Part shown: positions 598 to 39,118 of the stretch, in pieces
Position numbering within the stretch: position 1 is the stretch's first letter
Layout: each line of letters starts with the position of its first letter
Origin: a virus
Length of the DNA stretch: 44,441 nt
Strand: one strand, 5' to 3'
Virus record (IMG/VR): IMGVR_UViG_3300003937_000145
Coordinates: 1-44,441 of that record
Notes under the pieces: model-generated
Told to the model about the DNA's origin: nothing
What the model saw: the letters and a program-made list of their open reading frames with translations, nothing else
Databases searched by the model: none
Position numbers and translations under genes: made by a program

Positions 598-1290
598 TTA
601 ATTTCTAAATTTTATTAAAGCAGCACCAATTCCTGCGGTTAAACTCGTAAAGCCTACAGCTTTAATATTACCCATAGTATTCTCATCAAAGAATCCTTCA
701 TCGCCAAGATCTCCATCCATACCTGGTATTCCACCAGTTCCAAAAACACCAGCACCGCCACCACCAAGTTTTGTACCTTCTATTCTATTTTCTCTTGCTA
801 TTCTTTGTTGAGTGTTAAAGTTTTGTAACTGATCTGCTCTCCATAATCTATTATCATTAATAAGAACCCATAATGAGTCATTTACTATACTATCATGAAC
901 AGCTAGTACTTTTTCACCAACACCAGCTATATCTAAATCACCACCTAATGCGCCTTTCCCTCTAGGATCATGTAATCCTATAATACTTGCATTAATATCT
1001 TTAAGTATATCATTTCGAGTTAAATCTCGTGTTTTACCACCAGTTTTGGTTAATTTAGAATCAGCAAATGTTTTTGCTTGACCAGCGATGAACCTACGAC
1101 GAAAGTCTTCCGAAGAATCTACTACTAATCCTTCAGTCTCTATTTGCTCTTCGCTCTTTAATAATAATGACTCAGCGCGTTTGGCTTCTTCAGCTTCTCT
1201 TAATCTGTCACGTACTGTTTGTGCATTCAGCTTTCGTAACTGACCAACGACCTCTTGGAGTAACATTATATTTTGTTCTTTCTTAGCCAT
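598..1290 (-). CDS. Conserved-looking virion/tail protein with N-terminal coiled coil, function unknown
   Basis: 230 residues. Residues 1-50 are heptad-like and charged (VVGQLRKLNAQTVRDRLREA), as in a coiled coil. Around residues 175-195 there is a Gly-rich linker, and the C-terminus ends in a hydrophobic segment (VGFTSLTAGIGAALIKF). The ATG at 1290 overlaps the stop of the -1-frame ORF downstream of gp26 (ATGGCTAA), so translation is probably coupled to the frameshifted product. In long-tailed phages the gene after the tail-assembly chaperone pair is usually the tape measure. This protein is short for that role, but together with the next gene it might form a split tape-measure or hub module. 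No enzymatic motif was seen. Confidence 0.75.
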   Translation of the reverse strand: MAKKEQNIMLLQEVVGQLRKLNAQTVRDRLREAEEAKRAESLLLKSEEQIETEGLVVDSSEDFRRRFIAGQAKTFADSKLTKTGGKTRDLTRNDILKDINASIIGLHDPRGKGALGGDLDIAGVGEKVLAVHDSIVNDSLWVLINDNRLWRADQLQNFNTQQRIARENRIEGTKLGGGGAGVFGTGGIPGMDGDLGDEGFFDENTMGNIKAVGFTSLTAGIGAALIKFRN

Positions 1291-1474
1291 TCTTCTTTTT
1301 TATCCTTTCGTTTTGTTCTTTAACATGTTCCTGTAAAAGGTTGATATATATCTCCCTTTCCCATGGAATCATGTTATCTAGCTCATCTAATCCAAAATTA
1401 TGCTGATGCATCAAAGCAAAATTTAGTTTATAATAACTTATAACATTACTATGAGAAAGGGTTATTGAAAAAAA
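1283..1474 (-). CDS. -1-frame extension of gp26 (tail-assembly-chaperone-like), no start codon of its own
   Basis: The frame is open from TGA 1477-1475 to TAA 1285-1283. It encodes, after FF, SITLSHSNVISYY, then KLNFALMHQHNFGLDELDN, then MIPWEREIYINLLQEHVK and a Lys-rich end. The conserved-looking part begins before the only ATG available (in FALMHQ), and that ATG has no Shine-Dalgarno. The frame overlaps the end of gp26 in -1 register across seven U residues (1474-1468). I infer that it is reached by -1 frameshifting, giving a 297-residue gp26 fusion as in the G/GT tail assembly genes of other long-tailed phages. Alternatives are independent initiation at the internal ATG (about 42 residues) or a homopolymer sequencing error joining the two frames. 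Confidence 0.65.
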   Translation of the reverse strand, partial: FFSITLSHSNVISYYKLNFALMHQHNFGLDELDNMIPWEREIYINLLQEHVKEQNERIKKKNG

Positions 1475-2175
1475 TCAACTAAACCCTTTAACTCTATACT
1501 ATTACTTTCACCACACTTCTTACAATCAAAATCTAAATTATACGATAAATAAGGAGCTTGAGATAATACATCAACAATCTGATTAAACTGGTCTGAACTT
1601 AAACTTTCAACCATTGCAACTACTTCTTCATGCGGTACATCTGCAACAATAAATGTTTCTTCGCCACTATATACCGTTTCAAGAGAAGCACAAACCATAT
1701 TAATTATAGTTTCTGTCTCAGATTCTTTCACTAAATCTTTATTCCTATCCTTCATCGTAGCCCATTTTAAATCAACACTTATATCATTTGTTAATTTAAC
1801 ATGTGTATCTACTACATCATTTAAATTTTCAACCTTAACTTTTTCTAAATCAATCTTAATGTCATTTCTTTCATCACAAGCTTTACATTTAGGTGTTAAT
1901 TCTATACCTTCACCTACTGACTTACTTCTTAAAGTTACAAACATAAACTCAACATCAAAAGTAGTTAACTTACTTGCATCAATGTCTGATATAATACAGG
2001 CATTAATAATAGCAAGTACACTATTTTCAATTTGTTTCTCATCTTGAGATTCCATTGCTATTAACAATATTTTCTCTTCTTTGACCGTATACGGTCTGTA
2101 TGCAATACTTTCGCCTGATGAAGGCACAATCATATCATACTCTGGTGTTACCATTCTTGGTAGCATATTACTCAT
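1462..2175 (-). CDS. 26: Baseplate hub / assembly protein, T4 gp26-like
   Basis: 237 residues, close in size to T4 gp26 and matching that family by its opening (LPRMVTPEYDMIVPSSGESI, then YRPYTVKEEKILLIAMES). Two CxxC pairs, KCKACDE near residue 100 and CKKCGES near residue 220, could form a zinc site. In T4 gp26 is needed for baseplate hub assembly. I chose ATG 2175, which has GGAG seven nt upstream, rather than the TTG codon just before it. The gene ends in the seven-T slippery run, so a minority of ribosomes may read on in the -1 frame. It lies 20 nt after the tube-like gene in the same operon. Confidence 0.8.
   Translation of the reverse strand: MSNMLPRMVTPEYDMIVPSSGESIAYRPYTVKEEKILLIAMESQDEKQIENSVLAIINACIISDIDASKLTTFDVEFMFVTLRSKSVGEGIELTPKCKACDERNDIKIDLEKVKVENLNDVVDTHVKLTNDISVDLKWATMKDRNKDLVKESETETIINMVCASLETVYSGEETFIVADVPHEEVVAMVESLSSDQFNQIVDVLSQAPYLSYNLDFDCKKCGESNSIELKGLVDFFQ
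1468..1474 (-). other. Putative -1 ribosomal frameshift site, U UUU UUU
   Basis: Read on the minus strand, the end of gp26 is GTT GAT TTT TTT CAA TAA. The heptamer T TTT TTT, in the gp26 frame, fits the X XXY YYZ slippery rule exactly. It sits two codons before the gp26 stop. Slipping one base back enters the open -1 frame down to 1283. Downstream only a weak 5-bp stem (ATAAC with GTTAT) was seen, so a strong stimulatory structure is not evident. Confidence 0.6.
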
Positions 2176-2198: not shown

Positions 2199-2882
2199 TT
2201 ATTGTATCAATCCTCTATTATGTCTAGACCTAGCTATTTTTCTATTTTCTGCTCTATTAGCTGCCGATATTGCTTTATATTGTGCAGCTCTACTTTGGTC
2301 TAGCCTACTTCCTTGAGTAGTCTGATTCATTTTTGGATTAGCTAATACTTTTCTATTAGCTTCTTGAATTGCTTTATATTGTGCAGCTCTTTTTTCATTC
2401 TTATTTTCAAATCCATCTACTCCAACATCTTTCTCATCTGATTTCCAATTATCATATTCCCATGTCACTGTTATTTCCATTATACCTTCAGCACCTTCGC
2501 CTAATTCAACTTGACTTACTTGAATTGGATATGCATTCATTAATTTACAAGAATATCCTACTGTTTTATCTTCATCTCCGATTAAAGCATCAATTTGAAC
2601 TTGTGCACAATAATCATTTTTATACATTGTTTTATAATGATTACCTGAACTATTAACAATCATCTCTTGCCATACATCAAAATACTTCTTCATATAATAA
2701 TCACCTGTCAACATAAATGACATTGTAACTTCATCAGTAGCCATTGAATAAGGCTTCTTTGCAAGGTGATGGTTATGTGTAGCTTCAGTAACTGGATGTG
2801 TAAAATGAACACCATAACGATTACCACGTGCTATACCGCTACGTCTTTGTATTAAGGCTTTCATATCATCTATCGGGTTCAT
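2199..2882 (-). CDS. Tail-tube-fold baseplate protein (gp19/gp54-like)
   Basis: 227 residues. The core has the layout of the phage tail tube fold: RYGVHFTHPVTE at the N-terminus, then a helix (YYMKKYFDVWQEMIV), then strand-rich NDYCAQVQIDAL and SCKLMNAYPIQVSQVEL, ending in MEITVTWEYDNW. T4-like phages use this fold in gp19 (tube), gp54 (tube initiator) and gp48 (cap). The position among baseplate genes and the 227-residue length favour a tube-initiator role over the major tube subunit. The C-terminal 70 residues carry an internal repeat (RAAQYKAIQEANRK / RAAQYKAISAANRA). The start at 2882 is chosen because TAATG overlaps the upstream stop and GAGGAA precedes it; a longer ORF from 2909 is less likely. 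Confidence 0.75.
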   Translation of the reverse strand: MNPIDDMKALIQRRSGIARGNRYGVHFTHPVTEATHNHHLAKKPYSMATDEVTMSFMLTGDYYMKKYFDVWQEMIVNSSGNHYKTMYKNDYCAQVQIDALIGDEDKTVGYSCKLMNAYPIQVSQVELGEGAEGIMEITVTWEYDNWKSDEKDVGVDGFENKNEKRAAQYKAIQEANRKVLANPKMNQTTQGSRLDQSRAAQYKAISAANRAENRKIARSRHNRGLIQ

Positions 2883-24838: not shown

Positions 24839-27622
24839 ATGTCAAAATTAAAACTACAGGGTGATTCAGGCGGAACTGGTATATTTACTATTGCTTCTCC
24901 TAATAGCTCTACAAATAGAACAATAACGTTACCTGATGCAGCGGGTACGTTATTAGATACATCATTAGCTTCTTCAGCAACGGTCGGATTTGTTGTTGAT
25001 GAAGATAACATGTCATCTGATAGTGCCACTAAAGTACCTACACAGCAATCCGTCAAAGCTTATGTAGATGCCCAAATTGGTGCTGAGAATACACTTGCAG
25101 AAGATAACGATGTAAACATTACATCTGCGGCCGATGGCTCAATGATATTGTATGATACTGGAACATCGATGTGGATCGACAATGTTATGAGTGGCGATGC
25201 TACTATGACAGATGGTGGTGTAATATCACTAGCTGCTAACACAGTTGATTCATCAGAACTAGTAAATGGTTCGATTGATACAGCTCACATTGCAGATGCT
25301 CAAGTAACATTAGCGAAGATCGCTGATTCAGCTGCTAACACAGTTTTAGTAAGAGATGCAAACAGTTCGGGTGTTGTTTCAGCTAAAGCAGTTGCAGATA
25401 CTCAAGTATTAATTGGTGATGGCACAGGATTTACTGCTGCTGCACTAAGTGGTGATGTAACAATGACTAACGCAGGTGTTGTAAGTCTTGCAGCTAACAC
25501 GGTTGATTCATCAGAACTAGTTAATGGTTCTATTGATACAGCTCATATCGCTGATGACCAAATTACAACAGCTAAGATTCTTGATGCAAATGTCACAAGA
25601 GCAAAACTTGCTGCAGACGTAATTGATAGTACTAAGCTAGCGGATGACTCTGTTAATTCAGAGCATTTAGTTGATGGCTCAATTGATACTGCTCACATTG
25701 CTAACGACCAAATTACAGCTGCCTTAATGGCAGACAATAGTATTGATTCAGATATGTATGTTGATGGTTCAATTGATACTGCGCATATTGCTGATTTAAA
25801 TGTTACTACTGCTAAGATCGCGGCTGATGCAATTACAGGAGCTAAGATAGCGGACGATGCCATTGATTCAGAGCATTATGCAGCGGGTTCGATTGACACC
25901 GCGCATATCGCGGCAGATCAGATTACATCAGCGTTAATTGCAGATGACCAAATTGATAGTGAGCACATTGTTGCAGACTCTATTGATGCGGAACATCTAG
26001 CAGCAAACTCTGTTAATACTGATGCTTATATTGATGGTTCAATTGTAACTGCTCATATCGCAGCTGACTCAATCACTGCAGCTTTGATTGCAGATGATGT
26101 AATTAACTCAGAGCATATCGTTGCAGATTCAATTGATGCTGAGCATTTAGCACCTAATAGTGTTAACACAGATGCTTATATCGATGGTTCAATCCAAACA
26201 GCTCATATCACTGCAGACAATATTACATCTGCTTTGATTGCTGATGACCAAATCGATAGTGAGCATATAGTTGATGGCTCAGTAGATAATGTTCACTTAG
26301 CAAATTCAAGTGTTACAGTAAGTGATGGTTCAAACACATCACCTGTTGCTCTTGGTGGTACATTAACTTTTGCTGGTACAACTAATGAGATTGAAGTTGC
26401 TGAGAGTGCAGGTACAATCACAGTTGGTTTACCAAATAATGTAACGATTGCGGGTAACTTAACAGTAAGTGGTACTCAAACAACAGTTTCTTCAACAACA
26501 ATCGAAGTTGCTGATCCATTAGTTGCATTAGCAACAACTAATAATGCTGCGGATGCAGTTGATATTGGTTGGTATGGTTTGTATGATACATCAGGTTCAC
26601 AAGACTTATATGGTGGAATGTTCAGAGATGCTTCTGATTCAGGTAAGTGGAAACTATTTAAAGACAATCAAGCAGAGCCTACAACAACGGTTAACACGGC
26701 TGGTACTGGTTACGCAGTTGGTACTTTAGTTGCCACAATTGAAGGTAATGTTACAGGAGCGGTTACAGGTAATGCTAGTACTGCTACAGCGTTAGCAACT
26801 GGTAGAACAATAGGAATGACAGGAGATGTTGTATGGACATCACCTAGTTTCGATGGTTCAGGAAATGTGACAGCAGCAGGAACAATTCAAACTGCAGCTG
26901 TAGAACATGCGATGCTTGCTAATGATGCCGTTGATGGTGATAATTTAGCAGATAATGCTTGTGATTCAGAACACTATACAGATGGATCTATTGACACTGC
27001 TCACATTGCCAATGATGCAATCACAGCAGCTTTAATGGCAGATAATTCTATTGATTCTGATATGTACGTTGATGGTTCAATCGATACCGCGCATATAGCC
27101 AATGATCAAATTACTGCGGCTCTTATGGCAGATAATTCTATTGATTCAGATATGTATGTCGATGGTTCTATTGACACAGCACATATTGCTAATGACCAAA
27201 TCACAGCAGCGCTGATGGCAGACAACAGCATTGATTCAGATATGTACGTTGATGGTTCTATTGACACTGCTCATATTGCTGATTTACAAGTGACAAGCGC
27301 GAAGATAGCAGCAGATGCAATTACTGGTGCTAAGATCGCTGATGATGCAATTGATTCTGAACACTATGCAGCTGGTTCAATTGATACGGCACATATAGCA
27401 AATGATCAGATTACAGCGGCTTTGATGGCCGACAATAGTATTGATTCTGATATGTATGTCGACGGTTCTATTGATACGGCTCACTATGCTGATGATTCAA
27501 TTACTGAAGCGAAGATGGCAGATGATGCTATTGGTTCAGCTCAGTTAAAGACATTATCAACATTATTGATTATTAACGCGGCTGGTTCAACTGTGAAAAC
27601 AGTATATGGTGCAGGAGCATAA
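24839..27622 (+). CDS. Large repetitive tail fibre protein
   Basis: 927 residues. The N-terminus (MSKLKLQGDSGGTGIFTIAS, then PNSSTNRTITLPDAAGTLLD) is a common phage fibre opening. Most of the shaft is built from SIDTAHI/DDQI-type repeats of about 15 or 30 residues (25240-26290 and 26985-27530). A TTVSSTTIEVADPLVALATT module is shared with the 889-residue fibre. The tip (LLIINAAGSTVKTVYGAGA) matches the 439-residue protein. The repeats predict an elongated trimeric shaft. AGGAG precedes the ATG by 10 nt. The three 30-residue repeats at 27041-27290 keep their amino acids while changing codons. Confidence 0.78.
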   Translation: MSKLKLQGDSGGTGIFTIASPNSSTNRTITLPDAAGTLLDTSLASSATVGFVVDEDNMSSDSATKVPTQQSVKAYVDAQIGAENTLAEDNDVNITSAADGSMILYDTGTSMWIDNVMSGDATMTDGGVISLAANTVDSSELVNGSIDTAHIADAQVTLAKIADSAANTVLVRDANSSGVVSAKAVADTQVLIGDGTGFTAAALSGDVTMTNAGVVSLAANTVDSSELVNGSIDTAHIADDQITTAKILDANVTRAKLAADVIDSTKLADDSVNSEHLVDGSIDTAHIANDQITAALMADNSIDSDMYVDGSIDTAHIADLNVTTAKIAADAITGAKIADDAIDSEHYAAGSIDTAHIAADQITSALIADDQIDSEHIVADSIDAEHLAANSVNTDAYIDGSIVTAHIAADSITAALIADDVINSEHIVADSIDAEHLAPNSVNTDAYIDGSIQTAHITADNITSALIADDQIDSEHIVDGSVDNVHLANSSVTVSDGSNTSPVALGGTLTFAGTTNEIEVAESAGTITVGLPNNVTIAGNLTVSGTQTTVSSTTIEVADPLVALATTNNAADAVDIGWYGLYDTSGSQDLYGGMFRDASDSGKWKLFKDNQAEPTTTVNTAGTGYAVGTLVATIEGNVTGAVTGNASTATALATGRTIGMTGDVVWTSPSFDGSGNVTAAGTIQTAAVEHAMLANDAVDGDNLADNACDSEHYTDGSIDTAHIANDAITAALMADNSIDSDMYVDGSIDTAHIANDQITAALMADNSIDSDMYVDGSIDTAHIANDQITAALMADNSIDSDMYVDGSIDTAHIADLQVTSAKIAADAITGAKIADDAIDSEHYAAGSIDTAHIANDQITAALMADNSIDSDMYVDGSIDTAHYADDSITEAKMADDAIGSAQLKTLSTLLIINAAGSTVKTVYGAGA
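27041..27290 (+). repeat. Tandem 90-bp coding repeat in the fibre shaft
   Basis: Units begin at 27041, 27131 and 27221 (the third partial). Each starts with D-N-S-I-D-S-D-M-Y-V-D-G-S-I-D-T-A-H-I. Units 1 and 2 encode the same 30 residues but differ at the third base of 16 codons by my count. Related shorter units extend from about 25240 to 27530. Confidence 0.8.
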
Positions 27623-36816: not shown

Positions 36817-37494
36817 TTAGTCTATAAAAGCAAAGATATCATCAAATGGAGGGCACGTATCTTTAGCAAGACTTTCTGGTTTCATATTTTGCCATTTATA
36901 TAATTCTGCCTTTCCTATAGTTTGTATTAGATATGGTGTATATTTAATAAATGGATAATGCTTTGAATGCCACTTTTCTACTTGTTTAGGAAAACAAATA
37001 GCATATGAAGTATCCCACCCTGCATCGCACACTGCTCCTGTAATTGTTTTAGCAATCATTCCTACTTCTATACCCCAACTTTCTCTACCATCTGGGATAA
37101 AATCTTCTCTACCCATTTCCCACTGAGTTCCTGTTGCTTCACATTGTTCTGCTGCAAAGGCATTAGGTGGAGCGACTCGTGGTGTAAATATCAATGTCCA
37201 CGGTGCTGTTGCAATATGATATAGATTAGGATTTGCATGGTATTTGTCACCAACATCTCCATCAAAATCTACTTTATTTTGCTCACACATCTGATATAGA
37301 TGATTGCTTCTTTCTACATTTGGTCCTAACACATAACATTTATATGGAAAGGCATTTTGTTTTGATGTCGCAAGCGGATAACCTATTTTTAGTATGTCAT
37401 CTATAGCCGCTCTAGTAGGAACTAATTCTCCATGACCAGTGTGGTAATGTACGACATGAGCTCTTTTATTTAGAGACTCTGTTATATTACTCAT
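36817..37494 (-). CDS. Nitroreductase-like flavoprotein, diverged
   Basis: 225 residues. PTRAAIDDILKIGYPLATSK, then NAFPYKCYVLG, fits the nitroreductase N-terminal FMN-binding helix and strand. SWGIEVGMIAKTITGAVCDA fits the central helix, and PFIKYTPYLIQTIGKAELY fits the closing strand (usually P-x-x-x-I-x-x-G). The typical first R-R-S-x-R motif is not clear. It could be a dehydrogenase or cofactor-independent relative. A second, clearer family member lies at 42308-43084. ATGA-coupled to the upstream SGNH gene. Confidence 0.6.
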   Translation of the reverse strand: MSNITESLNKRAHVVHYHTGHGELVPTRAAIDDILKIGYPLATSKQNAFPYKCYVLGPNVERSNHLYQMCEQNKVDFDGDVGDKYHANPNLYHIATAPWTLIFTPRVAPPNAFAAEQCEATGTQWEMGREDFIPDGRESWGIEVGMIAKTITGAVCDAGWDTSYAICFPKQVEKWHSKHYPFIKYTPYLIQTIGKAELYKWQNMKPESLAKDTCPPFDDIFAFID

Positions 37495-38312
37495 TTAATT
37501 TCTCCTTGTTTTATATGTTCATAAAATAAAGTTGCTAACACTTCATTGCCAACTTTAGTGGGGTGTCCATCGTCTAATGATATAATGTTTGGATTATCTG
37601 GATCTAGATCAAAATATTTCCTATCCATAGAATATCCACCAAGTTGTTTTATAGTTGGCCAACCTATATAGTATTTATGATTAATTAACGGATCATAGTA
37701 CATTATTATCTTTAATAATGTTTCTATATTATTATCTTTCTCTTGGTTGGAATAACTACCAGCAGGAAGAATAGCCATAACATCTTTATAATTTTCAATA
37801 TCATGATAGGTTTTAATTATACCATTTGATGCTTTTATATAATCTCCATATAAATTTACCATTTGTGTTTGTAGATATGGCAAATTATGGTATTCACACA
37901 TATATTGAAAACTTAAATAGGTTCTTAAACTTCTTCGTACCCAACTAAATACATCACCGAGAGCTTTACGTTCTAATAGCCATCCTCTTCTTGAAGCAGC
38001 TCTATTTCCCCGTGATACATCAGTATGTTGCCATACATCTTTTTCTTGAAAATCTTTTCTAAATCCCTGAGACCATGCAGCAATAACTAAACCTATTTGA
38101 CTTTTATCTTTTATATTTTCAATTGTATCTTGTAGCGATGAGTAAATATATTCATTACCTTGACCAGATGACCCTAAACAAATAAGTTTCATATCTAATT
38201 TCTTAGCTAATATCTCAGGCCATTTTGGCCAAGACGTATCCATATCAGGGTGATTTGTAGATCTAAATTTTAAATTAGTAAAACTATCGCCACTAACTAT
38301 TAAATATTTCAT
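37491..38312 (-). CDS. SGNH/GDSL-type hydrolase (copy 2)
   Basis: 273 residues. LIVSGDSFTNLKFRSTNHPD holds block I (GDSF, nucleophile Ser). KLICLGSSGQGNEYIYSSLQ is block II, and ISLDDGHPTKVGNEVLATLF is block V (D-x-x-H). Block III (usually G-x-N-D) is replaced by VIAAWSQGFRKDF. It is clearly paralogous to the next gene (38309), sharing all these motifs plus FSWVRRSLRTYLS. Likely esterase or O-acyl transferase on the operon's glycan. ATGA coupling at both ends. Confidence 0.8.
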   Translation of the reverse strand: MKYLIVSGDSFTNLKFRSTNHPDMDTSWPKWPEILAKKLDMKLICLGSSGQGNEYIYSSLQDTIENIKDKSQIGLVIAAWSQGFRKDFQEKDVWQHTDVSRGNRAASRRGWLLERKALGDVFSWVRRSLRTYLSFQYMCEYHNLPYLQTQMVNLYGDYIKASNGIIKTYHDIENYKDVMAILPAGSYSNQEKDNNIETLLKIIMYYDPLINHKYYIGWPTIKQLGGYSMDRKYFDLDPDNPNIISLDDGHPTKVGNEVLATLFYEHIKQGEIK

Positions 38313-39118
38313 TTATTTTTTATAAATTCATGAATAGCTTCTGCTAATCTTATATGACCAGCAGCATTCGGATGACCATCATATTGTGATATAACATAAG
38401 GACTTCCTACTACACCACACACCTCAATACTAAGAGGAAATCCTCCAATATTTCTTGAAATTGGCCAACCTAAAAAGTTACGTGCATCTATAATTCCATC
38501 ATATTCAATTATAATATCAAGTATTTTTTTCAGATCTTCTTTAGGATCACCTGGATATGCTAGTGTATCATCTTCAAATGTTTTGCCGCCAAACATTATT
38601 TCTTGATCAGTGGGAGGCAATCCTCTTAACCAATCTACATATAACGGTATCATTTGTGTTTGTACATATGGGATATTATATCTTCCACAAAGATAATCTA
38701 AACTTCTATAAATCCTTAGACTTCTTCTTACCCAGCTAAATACATCACCATGCGGATCTACTCGCTCAGCTAGCCAACCTTTTGGAATTGCTTCTGGTGT
38801 TTGTTGATTGCGGCCGCCTATTACATTCCATTTTCCTTTTATACCTTCTTGAAAATCTTTTCTAAAACATTGTGACCAACCAGCAACTACCATACCTATT
38901 TGACTTTTATCTTCTAGAGTTTCAATATAATCTAATAATACCGAGTATATGTATTCGTTGCCTTGTCCAGATCTTCCTAAGTTAATAAGTCGCATATCTA
39001 ATTTTTCTGCTAATAATTCTGGCCACATCGGAAAAGACACATCCATATCAGGATGAGCAGCTGATCTAAATCTTCTATCGGTGAAACTATCACCACTAAC
39101 TATTAATAATTTTTTCAT
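38309..39118 (-). CDS. SGNH/GDSL-type hydrolase (copy 1)
   Basis: 269 residues, with the same block order as the 37491 gene: SGDSFTDRRFRSAAHPDMDV, MRLINLGRSGQGNEYIYSVL, a Trp block VVAGWSQCFRKDF in place of G-x-N-D, and ISQYDGHPNAAGHIRLAEAI with D-x-x-H. The two copies differ mainly in a loop around residues 90-115. No signal peptide, so a cytoplasmic esterase/acyltransferase acting on an activated intermediate is more likely than a secreted hydrolase. ATGA-coupled to both neighbours. Confidence 0.8.
   Translation of the reverse strand: MKKLLIVSGDSFTDRRFRSAAHPDMDVSFPMWPELLAEKLDMRLINLGRSGQGNEYIYSVLLDYIETLEDKSQIGMVVAGWSQCFRKDFQEGIKGKWNVIGGRNQQTPEAIPKGWLAERVDPHGDVFSWVRRSLRIYRSLDYLCGRYNIPYVQTQMIPLYVDWLRGLPPTDQEIMFGGKTFEDDTLAYPGDPKEDLKKILDIIIEYDGIIDARNFLGWPISRNIGGFPLSIEVCGVVGSPYVISQYDGHPNAAGHIRLAEAIHEFIKNK

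Follow-up and report, generated by a model that had tools for sequence, protein, structure and literature searches.

A probable -1 frameshift at the 3' end of gp26 in a marine T4-like virus and its relatives

The gp26 locus and its slip site

The window, that is, the whole stretch of DNA analysed here, is a 44.4 kb fragment from a marine T4-like virus. A gp26 homologue of 237 aa, the short form (G or TAC-N), is encoded on the minus strand at 1462-2175 and matched PF12322 T4_baseplate (2e-53) and phrog_150 (8e-56) as a whole protein. Directly upstream lies the tail tube protein gene (2199-2879, minus strand; phrog_45 3e-22, phrog_3629 3e-15), and further upstream are the genes for the DNA end protector gp2 and the head closure protein gp4. 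On the downstream side, the start of a tape-measure-like gene is located on the same strand at 598-1290; its intact orthologue in locus L008 (4883-6643) encodes 586 aa. The order tail tube, gp26/51, large tape-measure-like protein is found in the window and in its relatives, the tape-measure label coming from weak matches in relatives only. Their equivalents of the downstream gene (500-740 aa) gave weak tape-measure profile matches in phiM12 (1.8e-5), Ochrobactrum phage OC (3.8e-8) and Vibrio phage QD01 (1.1e-4), and the profile search returned no tape-measure match for the downstream protein of the window's clade.

Several other features of the window were recorded. Compared with the closely matching contig L001, 91 nt are absent near position 601 (minus strand) between two TAGAAA repeats. 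The loss splits the tape-measure-like gene, a single ORF in L008, into ORFs 598-1290 and 2-580, and probably represents either a deletion variant or an assembly collapse. The ORF at 24839-27622 contains many repeats of the type SIDTAHIAxDQITxALxADxxID and probably encodes a repetitive tail fibre protein. Between 29303 and 44394 (minus strand) a cluster of ORFs was assigned by eye to carbamoyltransferase, radical-SAM-like, aminotransferase and glycosyltransferase-like proteins, an unusual cargo for a T4-like phage; two neighbouring ORFs of this cluster, 37491-38312 and 38309-39118, are similar to each other.

A preliminary description of the sequence had proposed a programmed -1 frameshift at the end of gp26, and its reading of the junction was confirmed. 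The gene ends GTT GAT TTT TTT CAA TAA, with the in-frame slippery heptamer T_TTT_TTT at 1474-1468 (minus strand), one codon (CAA) ahead of the TAA stop at 1464-1462. The -1 frame is open from 1474 to 1283 for 63 codons including the two phenylalanines of the heptamer, 61 of them past this FF, and since a TGA directly precedes the heptamer in that frame, the -1 ORF starts at the slip site. It has no usable early start: the first candidates, TTG at 1414 and ATG at 1411 (codons 21-22), lack a Shine-Dalgarno (SD) sequence, unlike gp26 and the downstream gene, which both carry purine-rich leaders. The ATG of the downstream gene (1290) overlaps the stop of the -1 ORF (1285-1283). In-frame T_TTT_TTN is rare, occurring twice in the 14,132 codons of the window ORFs; in a control with representative loci, it fell within the last 10 codons of 4 out of 342 ORFs, as against 42 of the 42 homologous clusters outside the Ackermannviridae. 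Heptamers of this type do arise by chance, but chance does not account for the one at gp26. A homopolymer miscall was rejected, because contigs L001, L002 and L009 are identical across the junction and a run of seven or more T is kept in 22 loci of the window's clade.

The -1 ORF (1283-1474, minus strand) could be identified by profile search, in which its residues 2-62 matched phrog_634 (1.3e-25), the T4 gp51 family annotated as 'baseplate hub assembly catalyst'. It also matched the last columns of phrog_150 (231-282), which take over where the gp26 match (3-233) leaves off, and aligned with the C-terminus of Strabovirus gp51 in hhalign (1e-7). The earlier view of this ORF as a T-type extension is thus supported, with the correction that the family already has a name, gp51. 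A search of NCBIfam yielded no useful model.

Conservation of the slip site and the -1 frame

The preliminary description had called for an alignment of related phages, and these proved to share the heptamer, the absent start codon and the coding -1 frame across Kyanoviridae, Pootjesviridae, Emdodecavirus and several Straboviridae. All 72 loci of the first round whose 3' end was complete contain an in-frame T_TTT_TTT or T_TTT_TTC before the gp26 stop, together with a homologous open -1 frame. In an extended set of 180 loci, T_TTT_TTN was present in frame 0-8 codons ahead of the stop in 160, as TTTTTTC (117), TTTTTTT (40), TTTTTTG (2) or TTTTTTA (1). Clustering at 70% amino-acid identity gave 45 clusters, and each of the 42 outside the Ackermannviridae has T_TTT_TTN. 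All 42 accordingly show the layout typical of G/GT systems, in which the first of two overlapping ORFs ends in a conserved frameshift site. From codon usage, the joint probability of NNT followed by TTT in these clusters is about 10^-20, a value to be read as a guide and not as an exact P because the clusters share ancestry.

The heptamer is carried by P-SSM2, ACG-2014d, DSL-LC02, OC, C48C1 and Melnitz-2 (Kyanoviridae), RHph_Y68 and P10VF (Pootjesviridae), phiM12 (Emdodecavirus), XG4, and Aeh1, CC2, 65, S13, QD01 and VmeM-32 (Straboviridae). A +1 frameshift was rejected for the named phages: their +1 frame soon runs into a stop and shows no homology. The 20 loci without the heptamer are the Ackermannviridae (phiD3, Kuja) and close relatives (L099-L116, L083, L084). 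They keep a homologous, often start-less gp51-like -1 ORF, and the end of their gp26, GAR ATT TTC ATY TAA, is itself conserved; in Kuja it reads AAC CTT TTT CAA TAA. Slippage of a single tRNA on TTC or TTT in this family is possible, though unsupported.

The -1 proteins share a consensus from the heptamer on, FFxIxLSHDSLxxYYxxNFALMxHHxYSLTELxxMxPWER, and their homology includes the first residues (FFxIxLSHDSLxxYY). The start codons ATG, GTG and TTG are absent from the first 10 codons of the -1 frame in about 30 of the 42 clusters. Over codons 3-19, which precede the first start in most loci, pN/pS was 0.34 for the window's clade, and two further groups gave 0.36 and 0.28; the other two frames contain 3-8 stops. 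These ratios indicate purifying selection on the -1 frame ahead of any start codon. In the window's clade pS was also lower in codons 3-19 than in codons 20-48 (0.34 vs 0.60), a hint of constraint at the RNA level next to the slip site. An in-frame X_XXY_YYZ heptamer, a homologous open -1 frame and selection at the protein level across the junction, the hallmarks of a programmed -1 frameshift, were all present.

Proposed mechanism and alternatives

A stimulatory element was sought on both sides of the heptamer. Upstream, an SD-like AAGGG at 1484-1488 (minus strand) lies 9 nt from the heptamer in the window. Across clusters, the 21 nt that precede the slip codons paired with the anti-SD sequence at an average of -6.1 kcal/mol, as opposed to -5.0 kcal/mol in synonymous shuffles (z -5.5); the signal was modest when only the window's cluster was considered. 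When positions along the gene were scanned, the enrichment appeared only just upstream of the heptamer (z -4.7), the other sampled positions having z values of at least -1.8 that were mostly positive. The SD-like core (GAGGG, GGAGG, GAAGG or AAGGG) mostly ends 8-10 nt ahead of the heptamer. On this shuffle test across clusters, the SD-like sequence is the probable stimulatory element of the site, with AAGGG in the window as a probable internal Shine-Dalgarno stimulator. In the bacterial -1 cassette of the dnaX type, an SD-like element is placed about 10 nt upstream of the heptamer. The present site resembles that cassette in spacing and differs from it in that no conserved 3' hairpin was seen and the heptamer consists of T instead of A.

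The search for a conserved 3' stimulatory structure, conducted on the alignment of the window's clade, was negative. Folding and consensus folding of that clade gave a candidate hairpin at 1456-1489 (minus strand) with the stem AAAGGGTT/AACCCTTT, the heptamer in its loop and weak covariation. It was rejected as a 3' stimulator, given that the stem encloses the heptamer instead of following it.

Taken together, these sequence comparisons make it very likely that gp26 is a tail assembly chaperone of the lambda G/GT kind whose long form is produced by a -1 slip. Most ribosomes would terminate at the TAA at 1464-1462 and release the short form. A smaller share would slip back by one base while tRNA-Phe occupies both the P and the A site on T_TTT_TTT; the purine-rich SD-like stretch some 9 nt ahead of the heptamer and the nearby stop codon probably favour this step. 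Reading 61 further codons, these ribosomes would make a small amount of a gp26-gp51 fusion, the long form. We infer that this fusion joins the tape measure protein, which would bind the gp26 part shared by both forms, to a tail tube or hub protein, which would bind the gp51 extension. The slip as such, how often it happens and what the two parts bind are inferred alike.

It might instead be supposed that the small ORF is an independent gene 51 with its own start, expressed by coupling or re-initiation. A separate gp51 is annotated in P-SSM2, phiM12, Y68, C48C1 and others, and in about 12 of the 42 clusters a start does occur within the first 7 codons, in some overlapping the gp26 stop. In the window and about 30 clusters, however, the first start is only reached 10-34 codons into the frame, in the window without an SD sequence, and the codons ahead of it encode conserved protein. 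An independent gene would also leave the invariant heptamer and the upstream SD-like signal unexplained, and in T4 gp51, which holds this domain in another arrangement, it is joined to a gp26 domain. We therefore regard an independent gene as very improbable.

The fusion could also arise by slippage of the RNA polymerase, not the ribosome, on the T7 run present in the window's clade, as poly-T runs can slip in AT-rich genomes. Such runs are not the rule: in most clusters only six T stand before a C, G or A (117 of the 180 loci have TTTTTTC), which fits tandem tRNA slippage, and a T6 run is short for bacterial transcriptional slippage. The SD-like signal at a spacing of 8-10 nt is moreover a feature of translation, and a transcriptional origin appears very improbable. 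As for a sequencing error or the fission of a pseudogene, the 91-nt deletion in the next gene of the window contig might raise such a suspicion. Against it stand the purifying selection on the -1 frame and the recurrence of the junction in contigs of independent origin as well as in dozens of genomes from isolates; the conservation refutes this reading, whose probability is close to negligible. The frameshift site at gp26 is thus judged to be real and, on comparative grounds, very probably functional, a well-supported further example of a known idea and not a new type of system.

Tail assembly chaperones and the gp51 of T4

T4 needs gp51 for assembly, although the protein does not occur in the particle, and gp51 is listed together with gp26 among the hub assembly chaperones (PMC3004832). 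In the record of Acinetobacter phage Berthold, both carry the label tape measure protein assembly chaperone. For the window gp26, the AlphaFold model (pLDDT 90) had a single plausible match in a fold search of the PDB, the HK97 tail assembly chaperone gp13 (2OB9; probability 0.85, E 0.38, not significant), so that the likeness of the modelled fold to HK97 gp13 is suggestive. The same search with a T4-type gp51 found nothing sensible, nor did a sequence-based search for solved structures give a sensible match.

Placing gp26 in the tail chaperone family, as proposed in the preliminary description, is supported by these data but is not new. The tail assembly chaperones of T4-like phages, gp26/gp51 with short and long forms, were assigned by Vladimirov, Gautam and Davidson (2022, Virology 566:9-15), as cited in PMC12846349 and PMC10274946. 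The former, a paper on phage Adele, credits that work with poly-T slippery sites in T4-like TAC-N genes, and the latter, the PRFect paper, with a short gene and a separate long fusion gene in some T4-like phages. As represented by these citations, the core idea is therefore already known; the separate long gene fits T4, while the window and most relatives have one gene and a -1 slip. In phage Adele itself (Vandenendeviridae/Andersonviridae, hence other phage families), the TAC locus has a GTTTTT-containing -1 site, a mis-annotated downstream ORF and the same argument from the open frame (PMC12846349). Lambda gpG/gpGT (Xu, Hendrix and Duda 2004; PMC5009743) is alike in its position next to a tail protein and ahead of the tape measure, for which the window has a putative counterpart, and in the -1 slip shortly before the first ORF ends and the minor long form, both of which are predicted here. 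It is unlike the window in that the slip site here is T_TTT_TTN and the only fold match is the weak one to HK97 gp13; no sequence similarity was found between lambda gpG/gpGT and gp26. The G-T frameshift has been reviewed as widely conserved 'except T4' (PMC5009743).

The frameshift proposed for gp26 of T4-like phages does not extend to T4 itself. Genes 26 and 51 of T4 are divergently transcribed, and T4 gp26 ends GAG TTC TTT GAG TTA CTA TAA without a heptamer. T4 gp51 matched PF12322 (3.9e-52) and phrog_150 (2.6e-84), and its C-terminus matched phrog_634 (1.2e-23). In profile comparison with gp51 by hhalign, the gp26 part scored 5e-13 and the extension 1e-7. By these profile matches, gp51 of T4 is identified as a full-length gp26 paralogue with the same C-terminal extension, the composite architecture predicted for the gp26-gp51 fusion. 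T4 thus has a separate gene for each of the two forms, short and long, whereas its relatives would make both from one gene with a frameshift.

The gp51 of cyanophages has been described as reaching only about 20% of the T4 gp51 length, and Aeh1 as lacking gp51 (Sullivan et al. 2010, PMC3037559). In Aeh1 (NC_005260, locus L199) and in L200, L202 and L204 gp51 is unannotated, yet present in the -1 frame after gp26, and both observations are explained if the extension is read by frameshifting. It is fairly probable that the cassette (SD-like sequence, 8-10 nt spacing, T_TTT_TTN and a nearby stop) is ancestral to T4-like phages. It would have been lost at the duplication into gp26 (short) and gp51 (long) in Tevenvirinae and Twarogvirinae, and have decayed or changed its mechanism in Ackermannviridae. 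The direction, frameshift first and duplication later, is suggested by distribution. Were the cassette ancestral, frameshift products that went unrecognised would account for the 'missing' gp51 of Aeh1 and for the truncated gp51 of cyanophages.

Part of this significance already lies in Vladimirov et al. (2022), as far as the citing papers convey it. The present analysis may add the environmental breadth, the SD-like stimulator, the selection acting on the -1 frame ahead of its starts, the cases of Aeh1, CC2 and S13, and the Ackermannviridae exception. In many T4-like genomes the annotation of gp51, either missing or cut at an artificial start, would be corrected. T4 has long been the named exception to the tail-chaperone frameshift, and most sampled T4-like lineages are now indicated to have the site. 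The data indicate that the separate catalyst gp51 of T4 is the long form made permanent by gene duplication; its catalytic action would then have a testable reason, in that gp51 would be the minor long chaperone.
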